NCBI GenBank assembly: GCA_021782545.1
Contig: JAJXUW010000007.1
Span: forward strand, 1 to 39,911
Reading direction: 5' to 3'
Origin: Deltaproteobacteria bacterium
Lineage (GTDB): Bacteria > Desulfobacterota > Desulfuromonadia > Geobacterales > Pseudopelobacteraceae
Length of the DNA: 39,911 nucleotides
Both the position numbers and the translations under genes were made by a program. How positions within the stretch are numbered: position 1 is the first letter of the stretch; every line of letters begins with the position of its first letter. Shown one piece after another: positions 1 through 21,141 of this stretch. The notes below the pieces were generated by a model. The model worked only from the letters and a program-made list of their open reading frames with translations, did not search any database and was not told where the DNA came from.

Positions 1-864
1 ATCTGGACAGTCGCCACAACCATACCCCGACGCGGCAAACCGGTTGCGCAGGGCAAAGGCGTTCAACGAACGTCCATCCAACCCGGTGGTAAAATTTACT
101 GCCGGCAGCATCCGCCGCCGCGCCAACAGGTCAACCAGGGCCGGCGTACCATGTTCCCTGATGCCAAACGGCCCGTAAAGGAAGGGGGACGCGAGAAAAA
201 GGCGCCGCACATCCTGCAACGCCGTAGCAAAGGCCGCCTGATCGGAGATGTCGGTGCTGTCTTCACCACCGCGCACAATGATGGCCTTCAGCCGCCGATG
301 CCCCATGACGGCCCCCAGCCCTCCCCGGGCAAACGGTTCGCCCTCCGATGTCTCCACCGAGGCGTACAAAACACCTCTCTCGCCGGCCGGGCCGATAGCG
401 GCTGCAGCCTCATCCCCGGCCAGTCGTCCAAATAGCGCATCGGTAGACAGCCCCCACAGCTCATCGGCCGGTTGCAGACTGATCCGTTCGGGTTCAACCG
501 CCAGTATGACCGGTGTTGCACTGACGCCGGTCATAACCAGGGCATCGAGGCCGGCCCGCCGCAACTGGCGGGCAAAAGGGCCACCGCTTGCACTGCTGAA
601 GATGGTGCCGGTGAGTGGTGAACGGCCGGTCAACACACAGCGGGTGACCATGGGTGCCGCTGTCCCGCACAGCGGGCCACCGGCCAGGACTAACGGCAGT
701 TCGTCAGCCAGGGGGTCTTTCCCTGCATGCCCCTGCAACAGGGCCACCCCCAACCCGCGCCCGCCCAGCCACTCATGCACCAAGTCGTCGCCGGCCGGCT
801 CAATCCAGCAACGGCCGCCGGTAAGATCAACGCGGCCTATCCGCCCGGCCCAACCGCAGGTCAT
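1..864 (-). CDS. Aldehyde:ferredoxin oxidoreductase family protein, N-terminal part (runs off the left edge)
   Basis: The reading frame stays open from an ATG at 864 to base 1 (288 codons) with no stop, so the 3' part lies outside the window. The N-terminus (GRIGRVDLTGGRCWIEPAG, then WLGGRGLGVALL) and the region with GPLCGT, RSPLTGT, SSASGG and RAGLDALVMTG follow the N-terminal AOR domain, which binds the tungsto- or molybdopterin. Near the window edge GCGDCP gives Cys283 and Cys286, matching the start of the family's 4Fe-4S cysteine motif. Known family members oxidise aldehydes to carboxylates with ferredoxin or another electron carrier in anaerobes; the substrate here cannot be told. The start lies 3 bases after the yhbY stop, suggesting coupling. 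Family assignment is strong; the exact subfamily is open. Confidence 0.85.
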   Translation of the reverse strand, partial: MTCGWAGRIGRVDLTGGRCWIEPAGDDLVHEWLGGRGLGVALLQGHAGKDPLADELPLVLAGGPLCGTAAPMVTRCVLTGRSPLTGTIFSSASGGPFARQLRRAGLDALVMTGVSATPVILAVEPERISLQPADELWGLSTDALFGRLAGDEAAAAIGPAGERGVLYASVETSEGEPFARGGLGAVMGHRRLKAIIVRGGEDSTDISDQAAFATALQDVRRLFLASPFLYGPFGIREHGTPALVDLLARRRMLPAVNFTTGLDGRSLNAFALRNRFAASGYGCGDCPD

Positions 865-11024: not shown

Positions 11025-14000
11025 ATGTACGGGAAAACCGTTTTAAACTGGGTTGGGCGGCATTGGAAAAAACTGGCCCTCTGGGGCGGCGGGATCTTGA
11101 CGCTGCTGATCCTGTTCATGGCGCTGGTGCTGCCGGGCATCATCCGCAGCCAGGCGGAACAGGGGATCGCCAAGGCGCTTAACCGCAAGGTGACCATTGC
11201 CGACGTGCGGGTCAATCCGTTCACCCTGACCGCCACCATAGACGGCTTTCGCCTGTTCGAGCCCGATGGCACCACCCCGTTTGTGGAGCTTTCCCGGCTT
11301 AAGGCTTCCTTAAGCCTCGCCTCGCTCTACCGGTTCGGCGTGGTGGCCGATCACCTGAACATCGTTGCCCCCCGTGTCCGGCTGGTACGCACGGCAGCCA
11401 ACCGCTACAATTTTTCCGACATCCTCGACCACCTGGCCAGACAGCCCAAGCCGAAAAGCTCGGGCGGCATCCGCTTCTCGATCAACAACATCACCATCAC
11501 CCAGGGCAGTATCGATTTCTACGACCAGGCCGTGGCCGGCGGCAGGCATCACACCGTGCGCAACCTGACCCTGGCGATACCCTTTATCAGCAACATCCCC
11601 CACCTGGCGGAGCAGTACACCGACCCCCATTTTTCGGCCGTGGTGAACGGCGCGCCGCTCAGCTTTGACGGCAAGGCCAAGCCGCTGGCCAAGGCGGTGG
11701 AGGCCACCCTCAACCTGCGGCTCAACCGCCTGAACCTGCCCTACTACCTGGCCTACCTGCCGGCCTCGGTGCCGGTAACGCTCGATAAAGGCAGCCTGAC
11801 CCTTGATCTGGTGGTGACGTACCGGATCCACGCCTCACAAAAACCGGAACTGACCATCAGCGGACTTACCCGCCTGGACGGCCTGAACGTGACCGAAAAG
11901 GACGGCACGCCGCTGGTATCGTGCAACCGACTCGATCTGCAGACCAAGACGATCGAGGTGTTCAGCCGGCTGATAGATCTTAAGCAGATCAATCTGGACG
12001 GGCTGCGGTTGGAGGTACGTCGCGACAGGCAGGGCAGGTTCAACTTCCAAAACCTGGCCATGGCGGAGAAAAAGGCTGGCCCCCCTTCCAAAAGAGATGC
12101 ACAGAAACCAAAGGCGGCCAACGAACCGTTGCCCACCTTCAGGCTAGGGCAGTTCTTACTCTCCAACGGCTCGGTGCATTTTAACGACCGTACGCCCAAG
12201 GGGGGCTTTACGGCCGCGCTCACGGGCATAACGGCCAAACTTGCCAACCTTTCCACCGCAAAGGGTGCCACCAGCACCTACGAGTTGGCGCTTACCGGGG
12301 ATAGGGGCGAACAGCTGCAGGCCTCGGGTACGGCGGTGATTGCACCGCTGGCCGTCGCCACCAGCTTTTCGTTGAGCGATATCAAACTGCAGCGGGGCTG
12401 GCCCTACCTGCAGGCCCTGCTCACCAGGCCGGTGAAGGGCACCTTGGGAGTGGCCGGCGCGGCCTCCTTCACACCTGCAGAGGGGCTGACCGCCCACGAT
12501 CTAAGCCTTACCCTGCAGAATCTGATGGCTGATTTTGGCACCAAGGATGGGGCAAAACTAGCGGCATTAGCGGTGAGCGGCGCCAGCTTCAACCAAAAGC
12601 TGAACCGGGCCGAGATAGGGGCCATCACGCTGAACAAGGGAACGGTTTCGGTATCACGCGAAGTAGACGGCAGCCTGTCGCCGCTCTCCCTGCTGGTAGC
12701 CCAGCCAAAGCCCAGCGGTGGGGCCATCTCCCCTAGCCTGACGGTAACGACGGCTCACCGGGTTTCTCCAACCAAAGACGCCGCCAGGCCGTTTTCCTAC
12801 CTGGTGAAGCGGATCAGCGTAACCGCCCTGAATGTAAACTTCAAAGACAACAGCTTCCAGGAGCCGCCGGTGTTCAGCCTGCGCAACATCCGGCTTACAA
12901 CCGGCAACCTGAGCGGCCCCAGGCTTACGCCGATGCCGCTTGCGTTCAGCGCTACCTATGGCAAAAACGCCCCGCTGCGGGCCAGCGGCACCCTCACCCC
13001 GCAGCCGTTTCACTACCGGGGCTCCGTCAGGTTCAGCCGTCTGCCGATCAGAGACTTTGAGGCGTATGTGCCGGACAACGTGAATGTGCTGTTTGTGGGA
13101 GGCACACTGGACGGCTCGTTGCGGTTGAACGTGGGGCTGGACAAGGCCGGCAATCCGTACGGCAGCTTTGCCGGCAGCGCCGGGGTGCGGGGGTTCCATG
13201 CCGTCGATACGGTGCAGGAAGAGGACCTGCTGAAATGGGAGAGCCTGCAGCTGGATCAGATCAGCGGGACCATCGCGCCATTTAGCCTGGGAATCCACCA
13301 GATCGCCCTAAACGACGTCTATTCGAGGATTGCGGTGCGCAAGGACGGCACCCTGAATCTGCAGAACCTGATAAGCAAACCGCCGGCACCGGTTACCGGC
13401 ACACCGGACAAGACACCACCGCCGGCAGCCGCCAGCCCGGCAGCGACACCAGCGGCCGCACCGCCCAAGGTCAGGATCGACGACCTCACCATCCAGAACG
13501 GTACCATCGCCTTCAGCGACGTCCATCTGCCGCGGCAGTTCAAGACCAGCTTCTACCGGCTGGGGGGACGGGTGACCGGGCTGTCATCCGATATGAACCA
13601 GTTTGCCGACGTCGACCTGCGGGGCAACCTGGAGAACCACTCGCCGCTGCTCATCAAAGGCCGGATCAACCCGCTGCGTAACGACCTGTTCGTGGACATC
13701 ACCATCTCGTTCAAAGATATCGAGCTGTCCCCGGCAAGCCCCTATTCTGGCACCTATCTGGGCTACCTCATAGACAAGGGCAAGCTGTATCTTGATCTGC
13801 ACTACCTGATTCAAAACAAACAGCTGAAGGCCGAAAACAAGATTTTTGTCGATCAGTTCACCTTCGGGCGCTCGGTGGCCAGCGACAAGGCCACCAGCCT
13901 GCCGGTGCGGCTGGCCGTGGCGCTGTTAAAGGACCGTAACGGCGAGATCCACCTGGATCTGCCGTTGACGGGCCGCACCGACGACCCAAAATTCAGCATC

Positions 14001-14669
14001 TGGGGGGTGGTCTGGCAGGTGGTGAAAAACCTGTTCATCAAGGCGGCCACCTCGCCATTTGCCCTGCTTTCGTCCATGATGGGCTCAAGCGAGGACCTAA
14101 GCGCCATACACTTTGCCTTCGGCAGCAGTACTCTGACTCCTGCCGAGCAGCAGAAGTTAATGACCCTGGCCAAGGGACTAAACGACCGGCCGGCCTTAAA
14201 GGTTGAGATTAAGGGGTATGTGGACCGGGAGCGCGATGCCGAGGGGTACCGCAACGAACTATTGACGAAAAAGATGAAACAGGAGAAATATCTGGACCTG
14301 GCCAAGGCCGGCAAGGTACCGGAAGGGCAGAGTGCCGACCAGATGACTATTCTGCCCAACGAATACAGCCGCTATCTGAAGGCGGTCTATCTGAAGGAAA
14401 AATTCCCCAAACCGCGCAACTTCATCGGTATGCTGAAGGATCTGCCCGATGCCGAGATGAAAAAACTGATCATCACCAACACCAAGGTGGGGGGACCTGA
14501 GCTGCACCAACTGGCGGCGGACCGGGTGGCCACGGTGCGCAATTTCCTGATAGCATCCGGCAAGATGGCACCGGAACGGCTGTTCCAGAAGAGGGACGAC
14601 ATCTACAAGGCACCTAAAAACGAAAAAGGGGCCACCAGCCGGGTTGAGCTGGACCCGATCGCCCCATGA
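11025..14669 (+). CDS. DUF748 (AsmA-like) envelope protein, 1214 residues
   Basis: A very long envelope protein: one N-terminal membrane segment (about residues 18-40, ending LVLPGIIR), then a large periplasmic part. The motif following the anchor (IAKALNRKVTIADVRVNPFTLTATIDGF) typifies DUF748/AsmA-like proteins, thought to form long lipid-conducting grooves or to affect outer-membrane assembly. Several repeated blocks begin with RIDDLTIQNGTIAFSD-like strands. A Pro/Ala-rich linker lies at about 13370-13465. The C-terminal 200 residues start with IHFAFGSSTLTPAEQQKL, which resembles an OmpA-type fold start. The ATG at 11025 follows GGAGGG; a TTG at 11010 is less likely. The stop overlaps mtaB by 4 bases. 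Confidence 0.85.
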   Translation: MYGKTVLNWVGRHWKKLALWGGGILTLLILFMALVLPGIIRSQAEQGIAKALNRKVTIADVRVNPFTLTATIDGFRLFEPDGTTPFVELSRLKASLSLASLYRFGVVADHLNIVAPRVRLVRTAANRYNFSDILDHLARQPKPKSSGGIRFSINNITITQGSIDFYDQAVAGGRHHTVRNLTLAIPFISNIPHLAEQYTDPHFSAVVNGAPLSFDGKAKPLAKAVEATLNLRLNRLNLPYYLAYLPASVPVTLDKGSLTLDLVVTYRIHASQKPELTISGLTRLDGLNVTEKDGTPLVSCNRLDLQTKTIEVFSRLIDLKQINLDGLRLEVRRDRQGRFNFQNLAMAEKKAGPPSKRDAQKPKAANEPLPTFRLGQFLLSNGSVHFNDRTPKGGFTAALTGITAKLANLSTAKGATSTYELALTGDRGEQLQASGTAVIAPLAVATSFSLSDIKLQRGWPYLQALLTRPVKGTLGVAGAASFTPAEGLTAHDLSLTLQNLMADFGTKDGAKLAALAVSGASFNQKLNRAEIGAITLNKGTVSVSREVDGSLSPLSLLVAQPKPSGGAISPSLTVTTAHRVSPTKDAARPFSYLVKRISVTALNVNFKDNSFQEPPVFSLRNIRLTTGNLSGPRLTPMPLAFSATYGKNAPLRASGTLTPQPFHYRGSVRFSRLPIRDFEAYVPDNVNVLFVGGTLDGSLRLNVGLDKAGNPYGSFAGSAGVRGFHAVDTVQEEDLLKWESLQLDQISGTIAPFSLGIHQIALNDVYSRIAVRKDGTLNLQNLISKPPAPVTGTPDKTPPPAAASPAATPAAAPPKVRIDDLTIQNGTIAFSDVHLPRQFKTSFYRLGGRVTGLSSDMNQFADVDLRGNLENHSPLLIKGRINPLRNDLFVDITISFKDIELSPASPYSGTYLGYLIDKGKLYLDLHYLIQNKQLKAENKIFVDQFTFGRSVASDKATSLPVRLAVALLKDRNGEIHLDLPLTGRTDDPKFSIWGVVWQVVKNLFIKAATSPFALLSSMMGSSEDLSAIHFAFGSSTLTPAEQQKLMTLAKGLNDRPALKVEIKGYVDRERDAEGYRNELLTKKMKQEKYLDLAKAGKVPEGQSADQMTILPNEYSRYLKAVYLKEKFPKPRNFIGMLKDLPDAEMKKLIITNTKVGGPELHQLAADRVATVRNFLIASGKMAPERLFQKRDDIYKAPKNEKGATSRVELDPIAP

Positions 14670-15958
14670 CCAGACGCGTTGCCATTGCCACTCTGGGCTG
14701 CAAGGTGAACCAGTTCGAGACTGCCGACATGGCAGAACAATTTCGCGCTGCCGGATGGGAGCTGGTGCCGTTTAGCGGCCAGGCCGACCTGTACCTGATC
14801 AATAGCTGCACCGTCACCAGCCGCAGCGACGCCGAGACACGCCGTCTGGTACGCCGCGCCCGGCGCACCAACCCCGCCGCCACCATCGTAGCCACCGGCT
14901 GTTATGCCCAGGTGCAACCCGAGGTGCTGGCAGCCCTGCCGGAACTCAATCAGGTACTGGGTAATGAGGAAAAACAGCAGATTGTGGCCGCCATTGCCAG
15001 TGGCACAAACCGCGTCACCGACCTGAGCACCCTGCATGAGGCCGGCCCGCTGCGGCTTACCAGCCACCTGGAGCACACCCGTGCCTTCCTGCAGGTGCAG
15101 ACCGGCTGTGAAAACGGCTGCAGCTACTGCATCGTCCCAGCAGCCCGGGGGCCGAACCGCAGTGTGCCGCCCGATGAGGTGACCGCCGCCGTTCAACGCC
15201 TGTCGGACGAGAGAGGCTACCAGGAGGTGGTGCTGACCGGCATCCACCTGGGGGCCTACGGGCTGGACCTGCGGCCAGCAACCGATCTGACCGGGCTTGT
15301 GGATCGACTTCTGGCCAAAACCACGCTCCCGCGCCTCCGTCTTGGCTCCATCGAACCCAATGAGCTGACCGATACCCTACTGGACCGTTTCGTCACCGCA
15401 GACCAGCTCTGCCCTCACCTGCACATCCCCCTGCAGAGCGGCTGCGACACGGTGCTGGAGAGGATGCGGCGCCGTTACACAGCTGATTTTTACCGCAGGC
15501 TGGTGGAACGTGCCATAAGCCGCCTGCCGCAGGCCTTCATCGCCGCCGACCTGATCGCCGGCTTTCCGGGCGAGAGCGAGGAGGAGTTCGAGGCCACCTG
15601 TCGGCTGGTGGAAGCGCTGCCGCTGGCCGACCTGCACGTATTTCCCTATTCGCGGCGCCCCGGCACCGCCGCTGCCGCTCTGCCCGACCAGGTGCCCTCA
15701 CCGGTCATCACCAGGCGGGCTGAAATACTGCGGCGGATGGCGGCCGACAAACATGCCGCCTTCAAACGACGGTGCGTCGGTCGCATCGTCTGGGCATTGG
15801 GGCTGCGCCATGACCCGCGCAGCGGGATGGTGACCGGTCTGACCCGCAACTATCTGGAGGTGCGGTACCCTGCCGGCGCTGAATTGTTGAATAGAGAGGT
15901 AGCGGTGCAGGTGACGGACAGTGAAAAGGGTATGTTGATTGGGACACGCAAGGATTAA
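14666..15958 (+). CDS. mtaB: tRNA t6A37 methylthiotransferase MtaB (MiaB-like radical SAM)
   Basis: Adds a methylthio group to N6-threonylcarbamoyladenosine-37 of ANN-decoding tRNAs. The 430-residue protein has the three UPF0004 cysteines (Cys12 in TLGCKVN, Cys48 in NSCTV, Cys79 in TGCY) for the auxiliary 4Fe-4S cluster and the radical SAM triad CENGCSYC (Cys148, Cys152, Cys155). LHIPLQSGCD and a C-terminal TRAM-like region complete the family layout. TLGCKVNQFE at the N-terminus favours MtaB over MiaB and RimO. Start and stop overlap (ATGA) with the DUF748 gene, implying translational coupling. It converges on xseA with 12 bases between. Confidence 0.92.
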   Translation: MTRRVAIATLGCKVNQFETADMAEQFRAAGWELVPFSGQADLYLINSCTVTSRSDAETRRLVRRARRTNPAATIVATGCYAQVQPEVLAALPELNQVLGNEEKQQIVAAIASGTNRVTDLSTLHEAGPLRLTSHLEHTRAFLQVQTGCENGCSYCIVPAARGPNRSVPPDEVTAAVQRLSDERGYQEVVLTGIHLGAYGLDLRPATDLTGLVDRLLAKTTLPRLRLGSIEPNELTDTLLDRFVTADQLCPHLHIPLQSGCDTVLERMRRRYTADFYRRLVERAISRLPQAFIAADLIAGFPGESEEEFEATCRLVEALPLADLHVFPYSRRPGTAAAALPDQVPSPVITRRAEILRRMAADKHAAFKRRCVGRIVWALGLRHDPRSGMVTGLTRNYLEVRYPAGAELLNREVAVQVTDSEKGMLIGTRKD

Positions 15959-15970
15959 CAGGTCGCCAGG

Positions 15971-17311
15971 TTAGGCCGAGGTATCCTCTACCCGGCACAG
16001 CGCCCCACCCTTGGCCAGCCGTAGCCGCAGACGCTGTCCCACGCTGAGCTGAGCGGCATCCCGCAGCACCGCTCCATCCTCAACGGACTCGACCACGCTG
16101 TAGCCGCGGGCCAGCGTCTGCAGGGGCGACAGAGTATCCAGCCGGACGGTGGCCTCGCCCTGTTCCCTGGCCAAACGATCAACGAACGCGGTTACCCTGC
16201 GCTCAGCCCGTTCAGACAACAGTAGCAGCTGGTGCCGCAGGGTACTTATACGGATCGAGGGATGCTGGGCTGCCAGCTGCCGCTCCAGCCGTGCCAACTG
16301 TTCCCGACGACGGGCCAGCAGATTACGCAGACCGTTATCCAGACGTTCGGCAAGATCGTCCACCCGCTGTCCCAGATGCCCCAAAAGCAACGTCGGGTCG
16401 TGCAACGCCCGGTGCAGACCTTCCACCCGTCGGCGCTGCATGGCCACCAACCCCTGCATGGCCTGACGTAAACCATGCTGTAAACCATCAAGCCGCTGCA
16501 GCAGTTCCTCACGGCTGGCGCAGACCAGTTCGGCTGCCGCCGACGGCGTGGGTGCCCGCAGGTCGGCGGCAAAATCGCAGATGGTCCAGTCGGTTTCATG
16601 ACCCACCGCCGAGATAACCGGTATCCGTGAGCGCCGCACCGCCCTGGCCACCACCTCTTCGTTGAAGGCCCACAGATCCTCCAACGAGCCGCCACCCCTC
16701 CCCACGATCAGGACGTCGGCCGCCTGCAGACGATTGAGGTCATCAATGGCCTGAGCCACCTCGGCACCGGCCCCCTCCCCCTGCACCCGCACCGGATAAA
16801 GCAGCAGATCCAGGGCGGCGAATCGTCTGCCGAGCACATTCAGGATATCGTGGATCACCGCGCCGGTTGCGGAGGTAACCACGGCGATCCGCCGTGGCAA
16901 GACCGGCAACGGACGTTTACGGGCCTCATCAAACAGCCCCTCGGCGGCCAGACGTTCTTTCAGCTGCATGAAGGCCAGCTGCAGGGCGCCGGCCCCCTTT
17001 GGTTCCAGATATTCGCAGATCAGCTGATACTCGCCGCGCTGGTCGTAAACCGATATCCGGCCACGCACCACCAGTGCCATACCTTCCAGAAGCCGGAATC
17101 TAAGGGCCTTGGCGCTGCTGCGGAACATCACGCAGCGCAGCATGGCCCCGCTATCCTTCAAGGTAAAGTACAGATGTCCCGAGGCCGGCTGCGAGAGATT
17201 CGACAGCTCGCCCTCCAGCCAGACCTGGTTGAAGTTTTCCTCCAGCAGCCCTTTAAGCAGCGCGGTCAGGCGTGAGACGCTGAAGATGGTCCGTTCACCG
17301 AAGAGATCCAT
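15971..17311 (-). CDS. xseA: Exodeoxyribonuclease VII large subunit
   Basis: XseA and XseB together degrade single-stranded DNA to oligonucleotides. The 446-residue protein has the N-terminal OB fold (WLEGELSNLSQPASGHLYFTLKD in two runs, residues 31-53), the catalytic-domain motifs VVTSATGAVIHDI (144-156), GRGGGSLEDLWAFN (204-217) and GHETDWTICDFAADLRAPTP (237-256), and a long coiled-coil region to about 400. The start at 17311 is weakly served by AGGGTGG. The usual small-subunit gene xseB does not follow; the neighbour downstream is the convergent mtaB. Intact by length. Confidence 0.96.
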   Translation of the reverse strand: MDLFGERTIFSVSRLTALLKGLLEENFNQVWLEGELSNLSQPASGHLYFTLKDSGAMLRCVMFRSSAKALRFRLLEGMALVVRGRISVYDQRGEYQLICEYLEPKGAGALQLAFMQLKERLAAEGLFDEARKRPLPVLPRRIAVVTSATGAVIHDILNVLGRRFAALDLLLYPVRVQGEGAGAEVAQAIDDLNRLQAADVLIVGRGGGSLEDLWAFNEEVVARAVRRSRIPVISAVGHETDWTICDFAADLRAPTPSAAAELVCASREELLQRLDGLQHGLRQAMQGLVAMQRRRVEGLHRALHDPTLLLGHLGQRVDDLAERLDNGLRNLLARRREQLARLERQLAAQHPSIRISTLRHQLLLLSERAERRVTAFVDRLAREQGEATVRLDTLSPLQTLARGYSVVESVEDGAVLRDAAQLSVGQRLRLRLAKGGALCRVEDTSA

Positions 17312-17340
17312 GACACCACCCTAACACAGCAGCGGATCAC

Positions 17341-17381
17341 GGTCAAACCAGGTTGACCACGACGACGCTTTTGCCTATCAT
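17341..17381. promoter_or_regulatory. Divergent promoter region between xseA and the ParA-like gene; leaderless start for the latter
   Basis: GGTCAA (17341-17346) and TTGACC (17353-17358) form a perfect inverted repeat with a 6-base spacer and can serve as back-to-back -35 boxes. Rightward, TTGACC is followed after 17 bases by TATCAT (17376-17381), which would place the transcript start within about 2 bases of the ATG at 17390. Leftward, the other TTGACC has a poorer TAGGGT at 17 bases. Confidence 0.65.
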
Positions 17382-17389
17382 GCGACGCT

Positions 17390-18781
17390 ATGAACTGCTT
17401 TCCTTATATCCTGACGATTTCATCGGAAAAAGGGGGGGTCGGTAAGACCACCCTGGCAACCAACCTGGCCATCTACCTGAAGGCGATGGTGCCCGACCTC
17501 CCGGTCACCCTCATGTCCTTTGACAACCACTTCACCGTGGACAAGATGTTCGAGCTGAAGGGTCAGCCCAGCAACGGGACGGTCTACGAACTGCTTCAGG
17601 GCACGCAGGCCGCGCAGCTGGTGCTCCAGGGGCAATACGGCGTGCAGTACCTCCCCTCCTCCGACCACCTGGCCGAACTGTATCAGAACTTCAAGGGGCC
17701 GATGGTGCTGTGCCGGATGATGGCCGAATCAGGCCTTTCAGGGATTGTGGTGATTGATACCCGGCCCGATCTGAACATCCTGACCCAGAACGCCCTATAT
17801 GCCGCCGACCGCGTGCTGATTCCGGTAAAAGACATGCCCAGCCTGGAAAACTGCAAGCATATCTTCGCCCTGTTTGATCAGCGGGGTATCGACAAGAAAT
17901 CCCTGTCGCTCATCCCCTGCCTGATCGACAACCGGATCAAGTTCGACGGTCTGTTCAAGGATCAACGCACCCTATTGAAGGCATTTGCCATCAACCGCGG
18001 CTACCGCTGCCTGGAGACCTACATCTCCAAGAGCCCCAAGGTTGAAAGCCTGAACACCAACCCCGACGGTAAGATCTATCCGATCTTGAACCATGCCCGC
18101 GAGACCGAGGTGCATAACCAGTTTACCGAGCTGTCCCAGGATATCCTGACCAGCTACCATGAGACGGCCGAGCCGCGCTCGTTCCTGTACCAGCGCTGGC
18201 TATGCGAACAGGAGGAGCAAAAAAAAGCGGCCTTTCTGGCACGGCTGGAAGGCATCCCGGCACACTGCATCATCTGCGGCAGGGCACTGGACGGGCCGGC
18301 CGGCAAAGGGTTCTTCTACGAATCGGCCGATCGGACAACTCGGGGGTTTCTGCACAGCGACTGTTTTGTGGGGATGCTCTGCAGCACCCTGTGCAGCAAC
18401 GTGTCGGCTGGCAGCGAGATGCATACGCTCTCGCAGCAGGTTGTGCGGGAAAATGCACGGGAGTCGGTGGCGGTGTTCCTGCCGAGGCGTGACGAACGGG
18501 GTGATTACCAGGTACGCTTTCTGCAGTTAGATCTTGGAGGGACGCCGCTTCTGGAGCGAACTATTGCACTGACCGGCTTTTTGGAGGGGTTGTTTGACGG
18601 GGTGCACGACCAGCTGTATCTGCTCTTGAATGAGTCACTGACCGGTTATGACGGGAGGTTGCGCAACAGTTGGCTGGCAGTGCATCCGGTGGATGAGGAG
18701 CGCCCCGAGCAGGTGCTGCAGGAGCAACGCTACCGCCAGGTGCAGGAGCTGCACCGGCGGGTCGCGCAACTCGTGGCCTAA
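17390..18781 (+). CDS. ParA/MinD-type ATPase with a Cys/His-containing C-terminal extension
   Basis: Residues 1-250 form a ParA-like P-loop ATPase. The deviant Walker A EKGGVGKTT (Lys14 signature lysine, Lys19 catalytic) is followed by a Walker A'-like VIDTRPDLN with Asp123. Most ParA/MinD proteins end near 260 residues; this one reaches 463. The extension has CIIC (Cys293, Cys296) and HSDC (His322, Cys325), spaced like a treble-clef or ribbon zinc site, then a region rich in beta-strand-like residues and a charged C-terminal helix. No Shine-Dalgarno precedes the ATG and the promoter suggests leaderless mRNA. No parB, minD partner or flagellar gene is adjacent. The cargo is unknown. The stop overlaps the convergent deacetylase stop. 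Confidence 0.85.
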   Translation: MNCFPYILTISSEKGGVGKTTLATNLAIYLKAMVPDLPVTLMSFDNHFTVDKMFELKGQPSNGTVYELLQGTQAAQLVLQGQYGVQYLPSSDHLAELYQNFKGPMVLCRMMAESGLSGIVVIDTRPDLNILTQNALYAADRVLIPVKDMPSLENCKHIFALFDQRGIDKKSLSLIPCLIDNRIKFDGLFKDQRTLLKAFAINRGYRCLETYISKSPKVESLNTNPDGKIYPILNHARETEVHNQFTELSQDILTSYHETAEPRSFLYQRWLCEQEEQKKAAFLARLEGIPAHCIICGRALDGPAGKGFFYESADRTTRGFLHSDCFVGMLCSTLCSNVSAGSEMHTLSQQVVRENARESVAVFLPRRDERGDYQVRFLQLDLGGTPLLERTIALTGFLEGLFDGVHDQLYLLLNESLTGYDGRLRNSWLAVHPVDEERPEQVLQEQRYRQVQELHRRVAQLVA

Positions 18782-19788
18782 CGGACCAATTTTGAGACAA
18801 CCACCAGCGTCACCCCCTGCTGGCTCAAGCCTGGCAACACCTTGGCAAGGGTGGCAAGGGTGGTTGGATGGGGATGGCAGATGGCAATCGCCCTACCGTT
18901 CTTCCTGGCCTTAGCCACAGCTATGTTCAACTGACCACGGATGTAACCTTCATTTTGTTCATTATCCAAAAAGACATCACGACGGGCGCTTTTCATATGC
19001 AATGCCGCCGCAACCCGGGGGCCGGTCGTTGCCGGCGTGGTGACGCTGTCTATGAAAAAAAGCCCTTTCTGCTTTAACAGGGTAAGCACTCGACGCATCT
19101 GCGCTTCATCCTCGGTAAAGGCCGATCCCATATGGTTATTGGCCCCCACTGCCTGGGGCACCCGATCTACATAACTATTCACCAACGTCTGTAACTGCTG
19201 TTCATCATAGCTTAACAACAGGCCGTTAGACTCCATCCGCCGTTGCGGATATTCCTTGGACTGCATCGGGATATGCAACATCACCTCTGCACCGTGGCCA
19301 GCGGCAAAGGCGGCCACTTCGCCATCGTGACGCAGCCCCGGTATCACCGAGACGGTCAGTGGCACCCCGATCGCCATCAGGCTGCGCACCTCCTGCAGGG
19401 AACTCCCCATGTCGTCCACAATGATGGCAAGCTCGGCCCGACCGCCCGTCCGCGACACCGGCACAGCCGTTGGCAACGCATCATGCCCCTTGTGCGCCTC
19501 CTCACCATTACCACCGCCAACCACCGCCGGAGGGGTAACCATCGGTGCGGGTACCGATGCCAAGGCAGATGAGCGGCGGGGCTGTGCCGGGGCGGCGGGT
19601 ACCACAGGACGGGCCAGCTGCTGCAACCGGACGACCGGTGCCGGTTTCTGCTGCCAGGCCAGAAAATAGTAGCCGCCGAGGAGCAACAGCAGGATCAGGG
19701 CAATGAAAACGGCAAGGGCGGTTGCACCCTTGCCGTTCTGCTTCTTGTAGCGATTCGAGCGGGTTTGACGAGGCTTCTGCTTCGTCAT
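18778..19788 (-). CDS. Divergent polysaccharide deacetylase family protein (YibQ-like)
   Basis: A 336-residue membrane-anchored protein: basic N-terminus, one membrane helix (about 22-46, ALAVFIALILLLLLGGYYFL), a Pro/Ala-rich periplasmic linker to about 115, then the Polysacc_deac_2 domain. Visible motifs are AIIVDDMGSS, VSVIPGLRH, MLHIPMQS, NHMGSAFTED and the closing AIAICHPHP. The paired DD and the histidines resemble the metal site of NodB-like enzymes, but activity in this divergent branch is unproven. YibQ genes often accompany envC, as here. The start is 3 bases after the ctpA stop, and its 3' end overlaps the ParA-like gene tail to tail. Confidence 0.88.
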   Translation of the reverse strand: MTKQKPRQTRSNRYKKQNGKGATALAVFIALILLLLLGGYYFLAWQQKPAPVVRLQQLARPVVPAAPAQPRRSSALASVPAPMVTPPAVVGGGNGEEAHKGHDALPTAVPVSRTGGRAELAIIVDDMGSSLQEVRSLMAIGVPLTVSVIPGLRHDGEVAAFAAGHGAEVMLHIPMQSKEYPQRRMESNGLLLSYDEQQLQTLVNSYVDRVPQAVGANNHMGSAFTEDEAQMRRVLTLLKQKGLFFIDSVTTPATTGPRVAAALHMKSARRDVFLDNEQNEGYIRGQLNIAVAKARKNGRAIAICHPHPTTLATLAKVLPGLSQQGVTLVVVSKLVR

Positions 19789-19791
19789 CGC

Positions 19792-21141
19792 CTACTTGCC
19801 CTGGCCATAGGTCTTGAGAATTTCCCACCCTTTCAGCAGATCGACAGCCCGCATCAACTGATAATCAGACTTGAGGAAGTCGGCAGACTGTTTCTCGGCC
19901 TTTTCAGACTTAAGCTCCAGGGCATGGTCCTGCTTGCTGCCCTTGTCATCCCCTACAAAATGGTTCTCAAGATCCTTTTCGCGGACTGACAGGATATCGC
20001 GCTTCACCGAATCCTTGGGCAGTTCAATCTGCTCCACCACAATGTCCGGCGTGATTCCCTTGGCCTGAATGGAACGCCCCAGCGGCGTGTAGTAACGCGC
20101 AGTGGTGAGACGCAGGCCCGATTCATCGGCCAGCGGGATGATGGTCTGGACCGAGCCCTTGCCAAAGCTCTGGATGCCCATCACCAGGGCGCGTTTATGA
20201 TCCTGCAGGGCACCGGCCACAATCTCGGAGGCGCTGGCACTGCCGGCATTGATTAACACCACGATCGGATAACCTGGTTCCTTGTGACGGTTGCTGGCGT
20301 TGAACTGCATGCGGGATTCCTTGTCCCGCCCGGCGGTATAGACAATCAGCTTGCCGTTCGCTATGAAATGGTCCGCCACCCGCACCGCCTGTTCAAGCAG
20401 CCCACCGGGATCGTTACGCAAATCAATAACCAGACCGGCCAGAGGCTTACCCTTGTTCTCTTCGCCTAGGGTTTTTAGTGCCTTGGAAACGTCATCATCC
20501 GTCCGTTCCTGGAACTGGGCGATCCGTATATACCCGTAGCCCCCGTCCAGCAGCCGGAATTTAACGCTTTTCACCTGCACGATGTCGCGCATCAGGGTGA
20601 ACTCTTTAGGACGATCGAATCCCTCGCGCATGATGGTCAGGACAACCTTGGTCCCCTTGGGCCCTCGCATCCGCTTGACCGCGTCGGTAATGGAGAGATC
20701 CTTGGTAAACCGGTCATCAATCTTGATGATCTGGTCGCCGGCCTTGATGCCGGCCCGCTGGGCCGGTGTGCCCTCGATAGGCGAAATGACCGTCAGAATG
20801 CCGTCCTTGACGCTGATCTCAATGCCCAGGCCGCCAAAGGCGCCTTTAGTATCGATCTTCATCTCCTTGAAGGTTTCCGGGGTCATGAAGGAACTGTGCG
20901 GGTCCAAGGCCGCCATCATGCCGTTTATGGCACCATAGATCAGCTTCTTGGAATCAACTTCTTCGACATAGTTCTTCTTCACAATGGCCATCACATCGGT
21001 TAGAAGGCCTATGTATTCATAGTCCTTATCGCCTTCGGCGTTGCAACGACGTTGAGTGCTGATGCCGATAAAAGCGATCAGTAGAACCGCCACCACCAAA
21101 AATCCGAGTGCCACCTTTTTAGTTCTGCCAGGTTTCAGCAT
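19792..21141 (-). CDS. ctpA: C-terminal processing protease CtpA (S41 family, PDZ domain)
   Basis: A 449-residue periplasmic serine protease with an N-terminal membrane anchor (about 10-28). The PDZ domain runs from about 98 to 185 (GAFGGLGIEIS, GIKAGDQIIKIDD). The S41 core has DLRNDPGGLL, then GSASASEIVAGAL with catalytic Ser303 and SFGKGSVQ with Lys328, and Gln332 four residues later as in other family members. In related bacteria such proteases trim or degrade periplasmic peptidoglycan hydrolases, which suits its place after envC. The start at 21141 has GGAGGA 10 bases upstream. The 82-base gap to envC may hold a promoter (TTTCTT, 17 bases, TATAAC). Confidence 0.95.
   Translation of the reverse strand: MLKPGRTKKVALGFLVVAVLLIAFIGISTQRRCNAEGDKDYEYIGLLTDVMAIVKKNYVEEVDSKKLIYGAINGMMAALDPHSSFMTPETFKEMKIDTKGAFGGLGIEISVKDGILTVISPIEGTPAQRAGIKAGDQIIKIDDRFTKDLSITDAVKRMRGPKGTKVVLTIMREGFDRPKEFTLMRDIVQVKSVKFRLLDGGYGYIRIAQFQERTDDDVSKALKTLGEENKGKPLAGLVIDLRNDPGGLLEQAVRVADHFIANGKLIVYTAGRDKESRMQFNASNRHKEPGYPIVVLINAGSASASEIVAGALQDHKRALVMGIQSFGKGSVQTIIPLADESGLRLTTARYYTPLGRSIQAKGITPDIVVEQIELPKDSVKRDILSVREKDLENHFVGDDKGSKQDHALELKSEKAEKQSADFLKSDYQLMRAVDLLKGWEILKTYGQGK

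Follow-up and report, generated by a model that had tools for sequence, protein, structure and literature searches.

A gene for a ParA-like ATPase whose predicted promoter ends within a few bases of its ATG raises the question of where its mRNA begins and how ribosomes would read it. The gene lies in a window of 39,911 nucleotides (the whole stretch of DNA that was analyzed), contig 23 of a 2.05 Mb draft genome of the Geobacterales, and is transcribed divergently from xseA, the two start codons being 78 bases apart. A preliminary description of the window had predicted that this mRNA is leaderless, with 0-2 bases ahead of its ATG. The features on which the argument turns are as follows.

15971..17311, minus strand: xseA, exodeoxyribonuclease VII large subunit (TIGR00237, E 6.2e-149; Pfam Exonuc_VII_L), possibly leaderless
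17318..17323, minus strand: putative -10 element TAGGGT of xseA, spacer 17, ending 6 bases before the xseA ATG
17341..17346, minus strand: putative -35 element TTGACC of xseA, the left arm of an inverted repeat
17353..17358, plus strand: putative -35 element TTGACC of the ParA-like gene, invariant in 13/13 orthologs of the window's genus with upstream sequence
17354..17356, plus strand: in-frame stop TGA, restricting the start to ATG 17390
17376..17381, plus strand: putative -10 element TATCAT of the ParA-like gene, spacer 17; TAT.AT in 13/13 orthologs of the window's genus with upstream sequence
17387..17390, plus strand: predicted transcript start from sigma70 geometry, at G17387 (leader 3) or at A17390 of the ATG (leader 0)
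17390..18781, plus strand: ParA/MinD-type ATPase gene, 463 aa, assigned from Pfam AAA_31, likeness to Soj/ParA in sequence and fold, and conserved residues

We read the 78-base gap as a compact divergent region holding two back-to-back sigma70-type promoters, from which the ParA-like mRNA would emerge leaderless, and assign this reading a probability of about 0.87.

Promoter, start codon and product of the ParA-like gene

Re-reading of the positions confirmed the arrangement first described, TTGACC-17-TATCAT ending 8 bases before ATG 17390 with no Shine-Dalgarno (SD) sequence: the promoter agrees with the sigma70 (RpoD) consensus TTGACA/16-18/TATAAT at 10 of 12 positions, with a spacer of 17, and the SD hybridization energy at the gene is +0.4. 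The start codon is well fixed, since a reading-frame scan found no in-frame ATG, GTG or TTG between the stop at 17354-17356 and 17390; none precedes the Walker motif either, as had been stated for ATG and as now also holds for GTG and TTG. Orthologs mostly align from residue 1-4 of the window's protein. An out-of-frame ATG (17380-17382) sits within the -10 element (TATCATG), and TATNATG recurs in many relatives.

The sigma70 RNA polymerase initiates about 7 bases after the -10 element. The ParA-like transcript is therefore likely to start at a purine, 17387 or 17390, each of which follows a pyrimidine; the resulting leader of 3 or 0 bases agrees with the 0-2 bases originally proposed. Polymerase bound at TTGACC-17-TATCAT would begin transcription at A17390 or no more than about 3 bases ahead of it, and the mRNA would open with AUG, without an SD sequence. 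Translation would then take a leaderless route, in which a 5'-terminal AUG is engaged probably by 70S ribosomes or in an IF2-dependent manner.

The product belongs to the ParA/MinD-type ATPases by its deviant Walker A motif, KGGVGKTT, in which K14 and K19 are present in 128/128 aligned orthologs. Pfam searches placed AAA_31 (E 3.6e-16) and CbiA above their gathering scores, and the nearest solved relatives by sequence are Soj/ParA chains. Its predicted structure has a mean pLDDT of 75, with a weak C-terminal part; Foldseek likened the N-terminal ATPase part to Soj/ParA, with TM scores in the best rows of 0.7-0.8 by target and about 0.45 by query. The C-terminal remainder has no family assignment, and in it Cys 293, 296 and 325 are invariant (128/128). 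Against the NCBIfam equivalog model of the ParA partition ATPase (NF041546) the protein scores 49.5 bits, below the cut-off of 180. The gene is near-universal in the order as sampled, being found at E 1e-60 in 130/141 genomes and in 101/103 of those of good quality, and the records of its relatives are mostly named Geobacter or other Geobacter-like bacteria.

Promoter position and Shine-Dalgarno pairing among orthologs

A scan of positions 14000-21000 with a simple sigma70 consensus yielded two promoter-like sites on both strands together, as against 1.9 in shuffled sequence, TTGACC-17-TATCAT being the only one reported on the plus strand; hexamer matches being at chance level in this region, hexamers alone prove nothing. 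Of 20,000 dinucleotide shuffles of the 60 bases upstream of the ParA-like gene, 0.055% placed a promoter at 5-9 bases from the ATG. Within the draft genome the pattern TTGACN-(16-18)-TANNAT-(6-8)-ATG occurs twice, with no occurrence in the reversed control, and a relaxed pattern gave 18 matches (control 6), 12 of which begin open frames of at least 80 residues. Comparison of positions 15900-18900 with Rfam retrieved no known RNA element up to E = 1.

The SD context of the same genome was surveyed in 266 gene-like ORFs drawn from 298,689 bases. Some candidate start with an SD energy of -4 or lower was present in 236 of them. Among 75 single-start ATG genes, the ParA-like gene included, the median was -5.8; 49 stood at -4 or lower and nine above -1, the ParA-like gene among the nine. 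SD-lacking starts occur elsewhere in this genome, as a minority. A promoter precedes five candidate starts in the surveyed ORFs by 5-9 bases; of these, only the start of the ParA-like gene comes first in its ORF. Two typed patterns for the 16S 3' end, which would carry the anti-SD, matched 0/15 genomes, the single-contig genome G002 included, the rRNA perhaps being masked.

For comparison across the order we assembled 133 distinct orthologs, each with 60 or more bases of upstream sequence, 19 duplicates having been removed from 152; five (L079, L080, L081, L125, L145) are additional copies from genomes in which another ortholog is present. Seven rows were left out in which the Walker motif had no ATG 16 residues or fewer away: L038 and L122 are cut by a contig end, in L065 and L070 the ATG is located further upstream, and L051, L116 and L118 appear to be leadered. 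L042, which has no such motif, was dropped.

The orthologs fall into three sets. In 65 of the 133, termed proximal, a sigma70-type promoter ends 6-9 bases before the ATG (6 bases in 10 orthologs, 7 in 45, 8 in nine and 9 in one), with TTGACC (60) or TTGACG (5) as the -35 element and a spacer of 17 (20) or 18 (45). Here the median SD energy is +0.3 and no ortholog reaches -4, weak pairing of -2.6 to -3.5 being confined to five; the ATG common to all 65 follows by construction, as the search looked for Met. Shuffled upstream sequences gave this layout in a mean of 0.12 of 133 orthologs, with a maximum of 2 over 200 rounds. A distal set of 47 has TTGACC throughout, as TTGACC-17-TAGTAT or TACTAT in 41, with the promoter ending 52-61 bases upstream in 45 and 83 (L041) or 96 (L030) bases upstream in the other two; the SD median is -6.3, with 40 at -4 or lower and seven above. 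The remaining 21 have a median of -4.8, with 15 at -4 or lower; in 19 of them the 140 bases scanned contained no promoter match, the match in L052 has a gap of 27, and that in L145 is TTTACA with a gap of 95. One member of this set, L063, lacks both a promoter match and an SD sequence (-0.2).

In 17 genera, which span three families (13 genera in f3, three in f4, and the window's own in f1), all counted rows are proximal, and the only other proximal row is without a genus assignment; 46 of the 47 distal rows come from sister genera of the window's family and one from f2. The uncounted L116 and L118 are extra copies in G083, a genome of genus g17, and their leadered appearance means that this genus is not uniform. 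Around the distal -10 element a conserved cAAATTG.CTA.TAT was seen at L013-L015, L018-L021, L024, L026, L028-L030 and the loci of genus g6; by eye, the same loci show a leader of about 50 bases with CGGCGG or CGGTGG before the ATG and often a small hairpin. Upstream sequence at the f4 loci L060, L063, L065, L070 and L144 resembles, again by eye, the 3' end of a tRNA, a terminator-like hairpin, or both.

Two further properties of the proximal set bear on the start site. A pyrimidine precedes the ATG in 64/65 proximal orthologs as against 49/68 of the rest (the rows being related), as expected if the A of the ATG is often the start. The gap stays at 6-8 bases while the distance to xseA runs from 57 to 521 bases, and crowding by the neighbor thus does not explain its shortness. 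Reduced 5' structure was considered as further support and set aside, as the tendency ran the opposite way: the median folding energy (MFE) of the first 40 bases is -2.2 in the 65 proximal and 0.0 in the 47 distal orthologs, making the former slightly more structured. The window gene, at -2.2, is weakly folded in absolute terms, though no more weakly than its leadered orthologs.

Two other accounts of the transcript can be weighed against these results. Leadered mRNAs without an SD sequence are common in bacteria (PMC4611024), and the main transcript might accordingly begin further upstream, inside or beyond xseA, and be translated independently of SD pairing. We consider this unlikely: the scan of 14000-21000 with a simple sigma70 consensus reported no second promoter-like site on the plus strand, and a promoter with a 6-9 base gap is kept in 65 of the 133 orthologs, while those with other layouts mostly carry an SD sequence (55 of the 68 in the distal and remaining sets at -4 or lower). 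It is extremely improbable that the promoter match is fortuitous and that the real start or promoter of the gene lies elsewhere; the regional hexamer count would allow it, but the match is conserved across the order, the full arrangement is rare, and the reading frame leaves no other ATG, GTG or TTG to serve as start. The leaderless prediction for the ParA-like gene is well supported by this conservation, its layout co-occurring with the absence of an SD sequence in relatives as in the window, and the preliminary description is in this respect upheld.

The inverted repeat and the putative mirror promoter of xseA

Between the two genes lies GGTCAA-6-TTGACC, a perfect 6+6 inverted repeat whose right half is the -35 element of the ParA-like gene. 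The other half, scored as GTCAA, accompanies 54/67 promoters adjoining xseA but only 3/45 where xseA was not found upstream, the latter loci having been read over 697-2500 bases and comprising many close relatives that often keep a remnant such as CAAACGG. Since most loci that lack xseA as a neighbor also lack its half of the repeat, the repeat is best understood as a back-to-back pair of -35 boxes and not as an operator. A repressor operator, with the -35/-10 match incidental, would fit the perfect symmetry of the repeat and the recurrence of repeat followed by -10 in 9/15 genomes of the genus, among them the genome that holds the window. Against it, the left half tracks xseA whereas the right half persists, both halves are retained at L002 and L003 with 20 bases between them, and each half stands at the correct distance from a -10 element to act as its -35. 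The operator reading is disfavored by the xseA-adjacency control and seems to us very unlikely; a regulator may additionally use the site.

Divergent back-to-back sigma70 promoters are known elsewhere. The likeness here lies in -35 boxes that face one another with 5-8 bases between them in 52 of the 67 xseA-adjoining loci (with 20 in two, and no half found in 13); the difference is that both transcripts of the region may be leaderless in the window's genus, a situation that would make the intergenic gap little more than two core promoters. A literature search for divergent promoters with both transcripts leaderless gave no recognized case among the titles. From the geometry, two polymerases might compete at such a region and exclude one another from it.

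On the xseA side, TTGACC-17/18-TANNNT-6..8-ATG is present in 11/11 loci of the window's genus that adjoin xseA, and gaps of 6 or 10 occur in five sister-genus loci of f1. In the 51 other xseA loci a promoter lies 11-59 bases upstream (17) or was not found (34), and SD-like scores of -4 or lower occur in 47. With start codons taken as the candidate nearest the alignment start, xseA begins with ATG in 16/16 loci whose promoter gap is at most 10 as against 27/51 otherwise, among rows that are related; this is the pattern predicted by a requirement for AUG at a 5'-terminal start (PMC4611024). SD-like scores of -4 or lower, arising from G-rich sequence about the -10 element, also occur in 8/16 of these near-promoter loci, 3/11 in the window's genus, and make xseA a weaker leaderless case than the ParA-like gene. 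At the window's own xseA the score is -7.1; the G-rich stretch responsible overlaps the -10 element of the gene and would fall outside the xseA mRNA if the promoter is used as proposed. In the window's genus xseA may also be leaderless, the mirror promoter probably giving such an mRNA, although less certainly than its counterpart.

Evolution of the layout and relation to known leaderless genes

On a FastTree phylogeny of 128 proteins (five short ones left out), the proximal state requires only four changes, related species not being independent. A single long branch serves as the outgroup, and each of the three deepest groups under it has members in that state. It is plausible from this distribution that the leaderless condition is ancestral and that leaders were gained later. 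In three independent contrasts an SD sequence never accompanies the proximal state; a sign test on three cannot reach significance, and with so few changes of state the relation of SD to promoter position fails as an independent-contrast test. We advance only tentatively, as a doubtful extension, the view that a leaderless state, possibly ancestral, has been selectively kept across the order within a two-sided core-promoter block, from which xseA and ParA-like mRNAs, both leaderless, would be mutually exclusive at the polymerase step and would respond together when ribosomes favor 5'-terminal AUGs, the sister genera having exchanged this, on the ParA side, for an SD-bearing leader of about 50 bases.

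A second conserved leaderless candidate, one of the relaxed-pattern matches in the genome, is mltG, a YceG-family gene (Pfam PF02618). Thirteen of 14 loci could be compared, L211 being a fragment; TTGAC(G/C)-16-TACAAT-6..9-ATG without an SD sequence is found in 12/13 loci of the genus, L208 having yielded no start. Its position and relatives are:

contig 110, 59919-58900, minus strand: mltG of the same genome (L198, 1501-2520), with relatives L199-L210

Elsewhere in the genome, nine frames of at least 80 residues (L183, L185, L187, L189, L190, L191, L193, L196 and L197) begin 6-8 bases after TTGAC-16..18-TANNNT; L183, L189 and L197, among these candidates, have SD-like scores of -4 or lower.

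One earlier study reportedly holds a start-site map for Geobacter. Our literature search found no accessible map of this kind for the Geobacter group, and no paper joining Geobacter, the ParA family and the exodeoxyribonuclease VII large subunit; G. sulfurreducens is among the species with promoter data (PMC3918002). Zheng et al. (2011; PMC3160421) defined TA-led genes by a TANNNT whose second-position A lies 8-14 bases from the start. In the window gene, which opens on ATG 17390, this A lies 13 bases from the start, and the gene resembles theirs in having TANNNT near the start, no SD sequence and ATG. Theirs is a genome-scale survey, whereas the present comparison traces a single gene, SD-led relatives included, through an order; the word "Geobacter" is absent from the main text of that paper, as distinct from its gene lists. 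Caulobacter crescentus has 375 experimentally mapped leaderless mRNAs, dnaQ being shown as an example (PMC4117421). These are alike in that the predicted 5' end of the ParA-like mRNA is at or adjoining the A of AUG; they differ in that the Caulobacter ends were mapped, in a distant bacterial group, while the start given here is predicted from sequence.

Leaderless genes of this kind are already known, and the ParA-like gene appears to be a good, if fairly ordinary, further example. The analysis adds the putative mirror promoter of xseA, an explanation for the palindrome, and a natural leaderless/leadered difference within one family. The conserved palindrome, which could be mistaken for an operator, now has an explanation, and mapped leaderless cases in the Geobacter group would be useful. 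An ortholog that looks leaderless in 17 genera and SD-leadered in close relatives, under the same kind of promoter, offers a ready test of the effect of a leader on expression.
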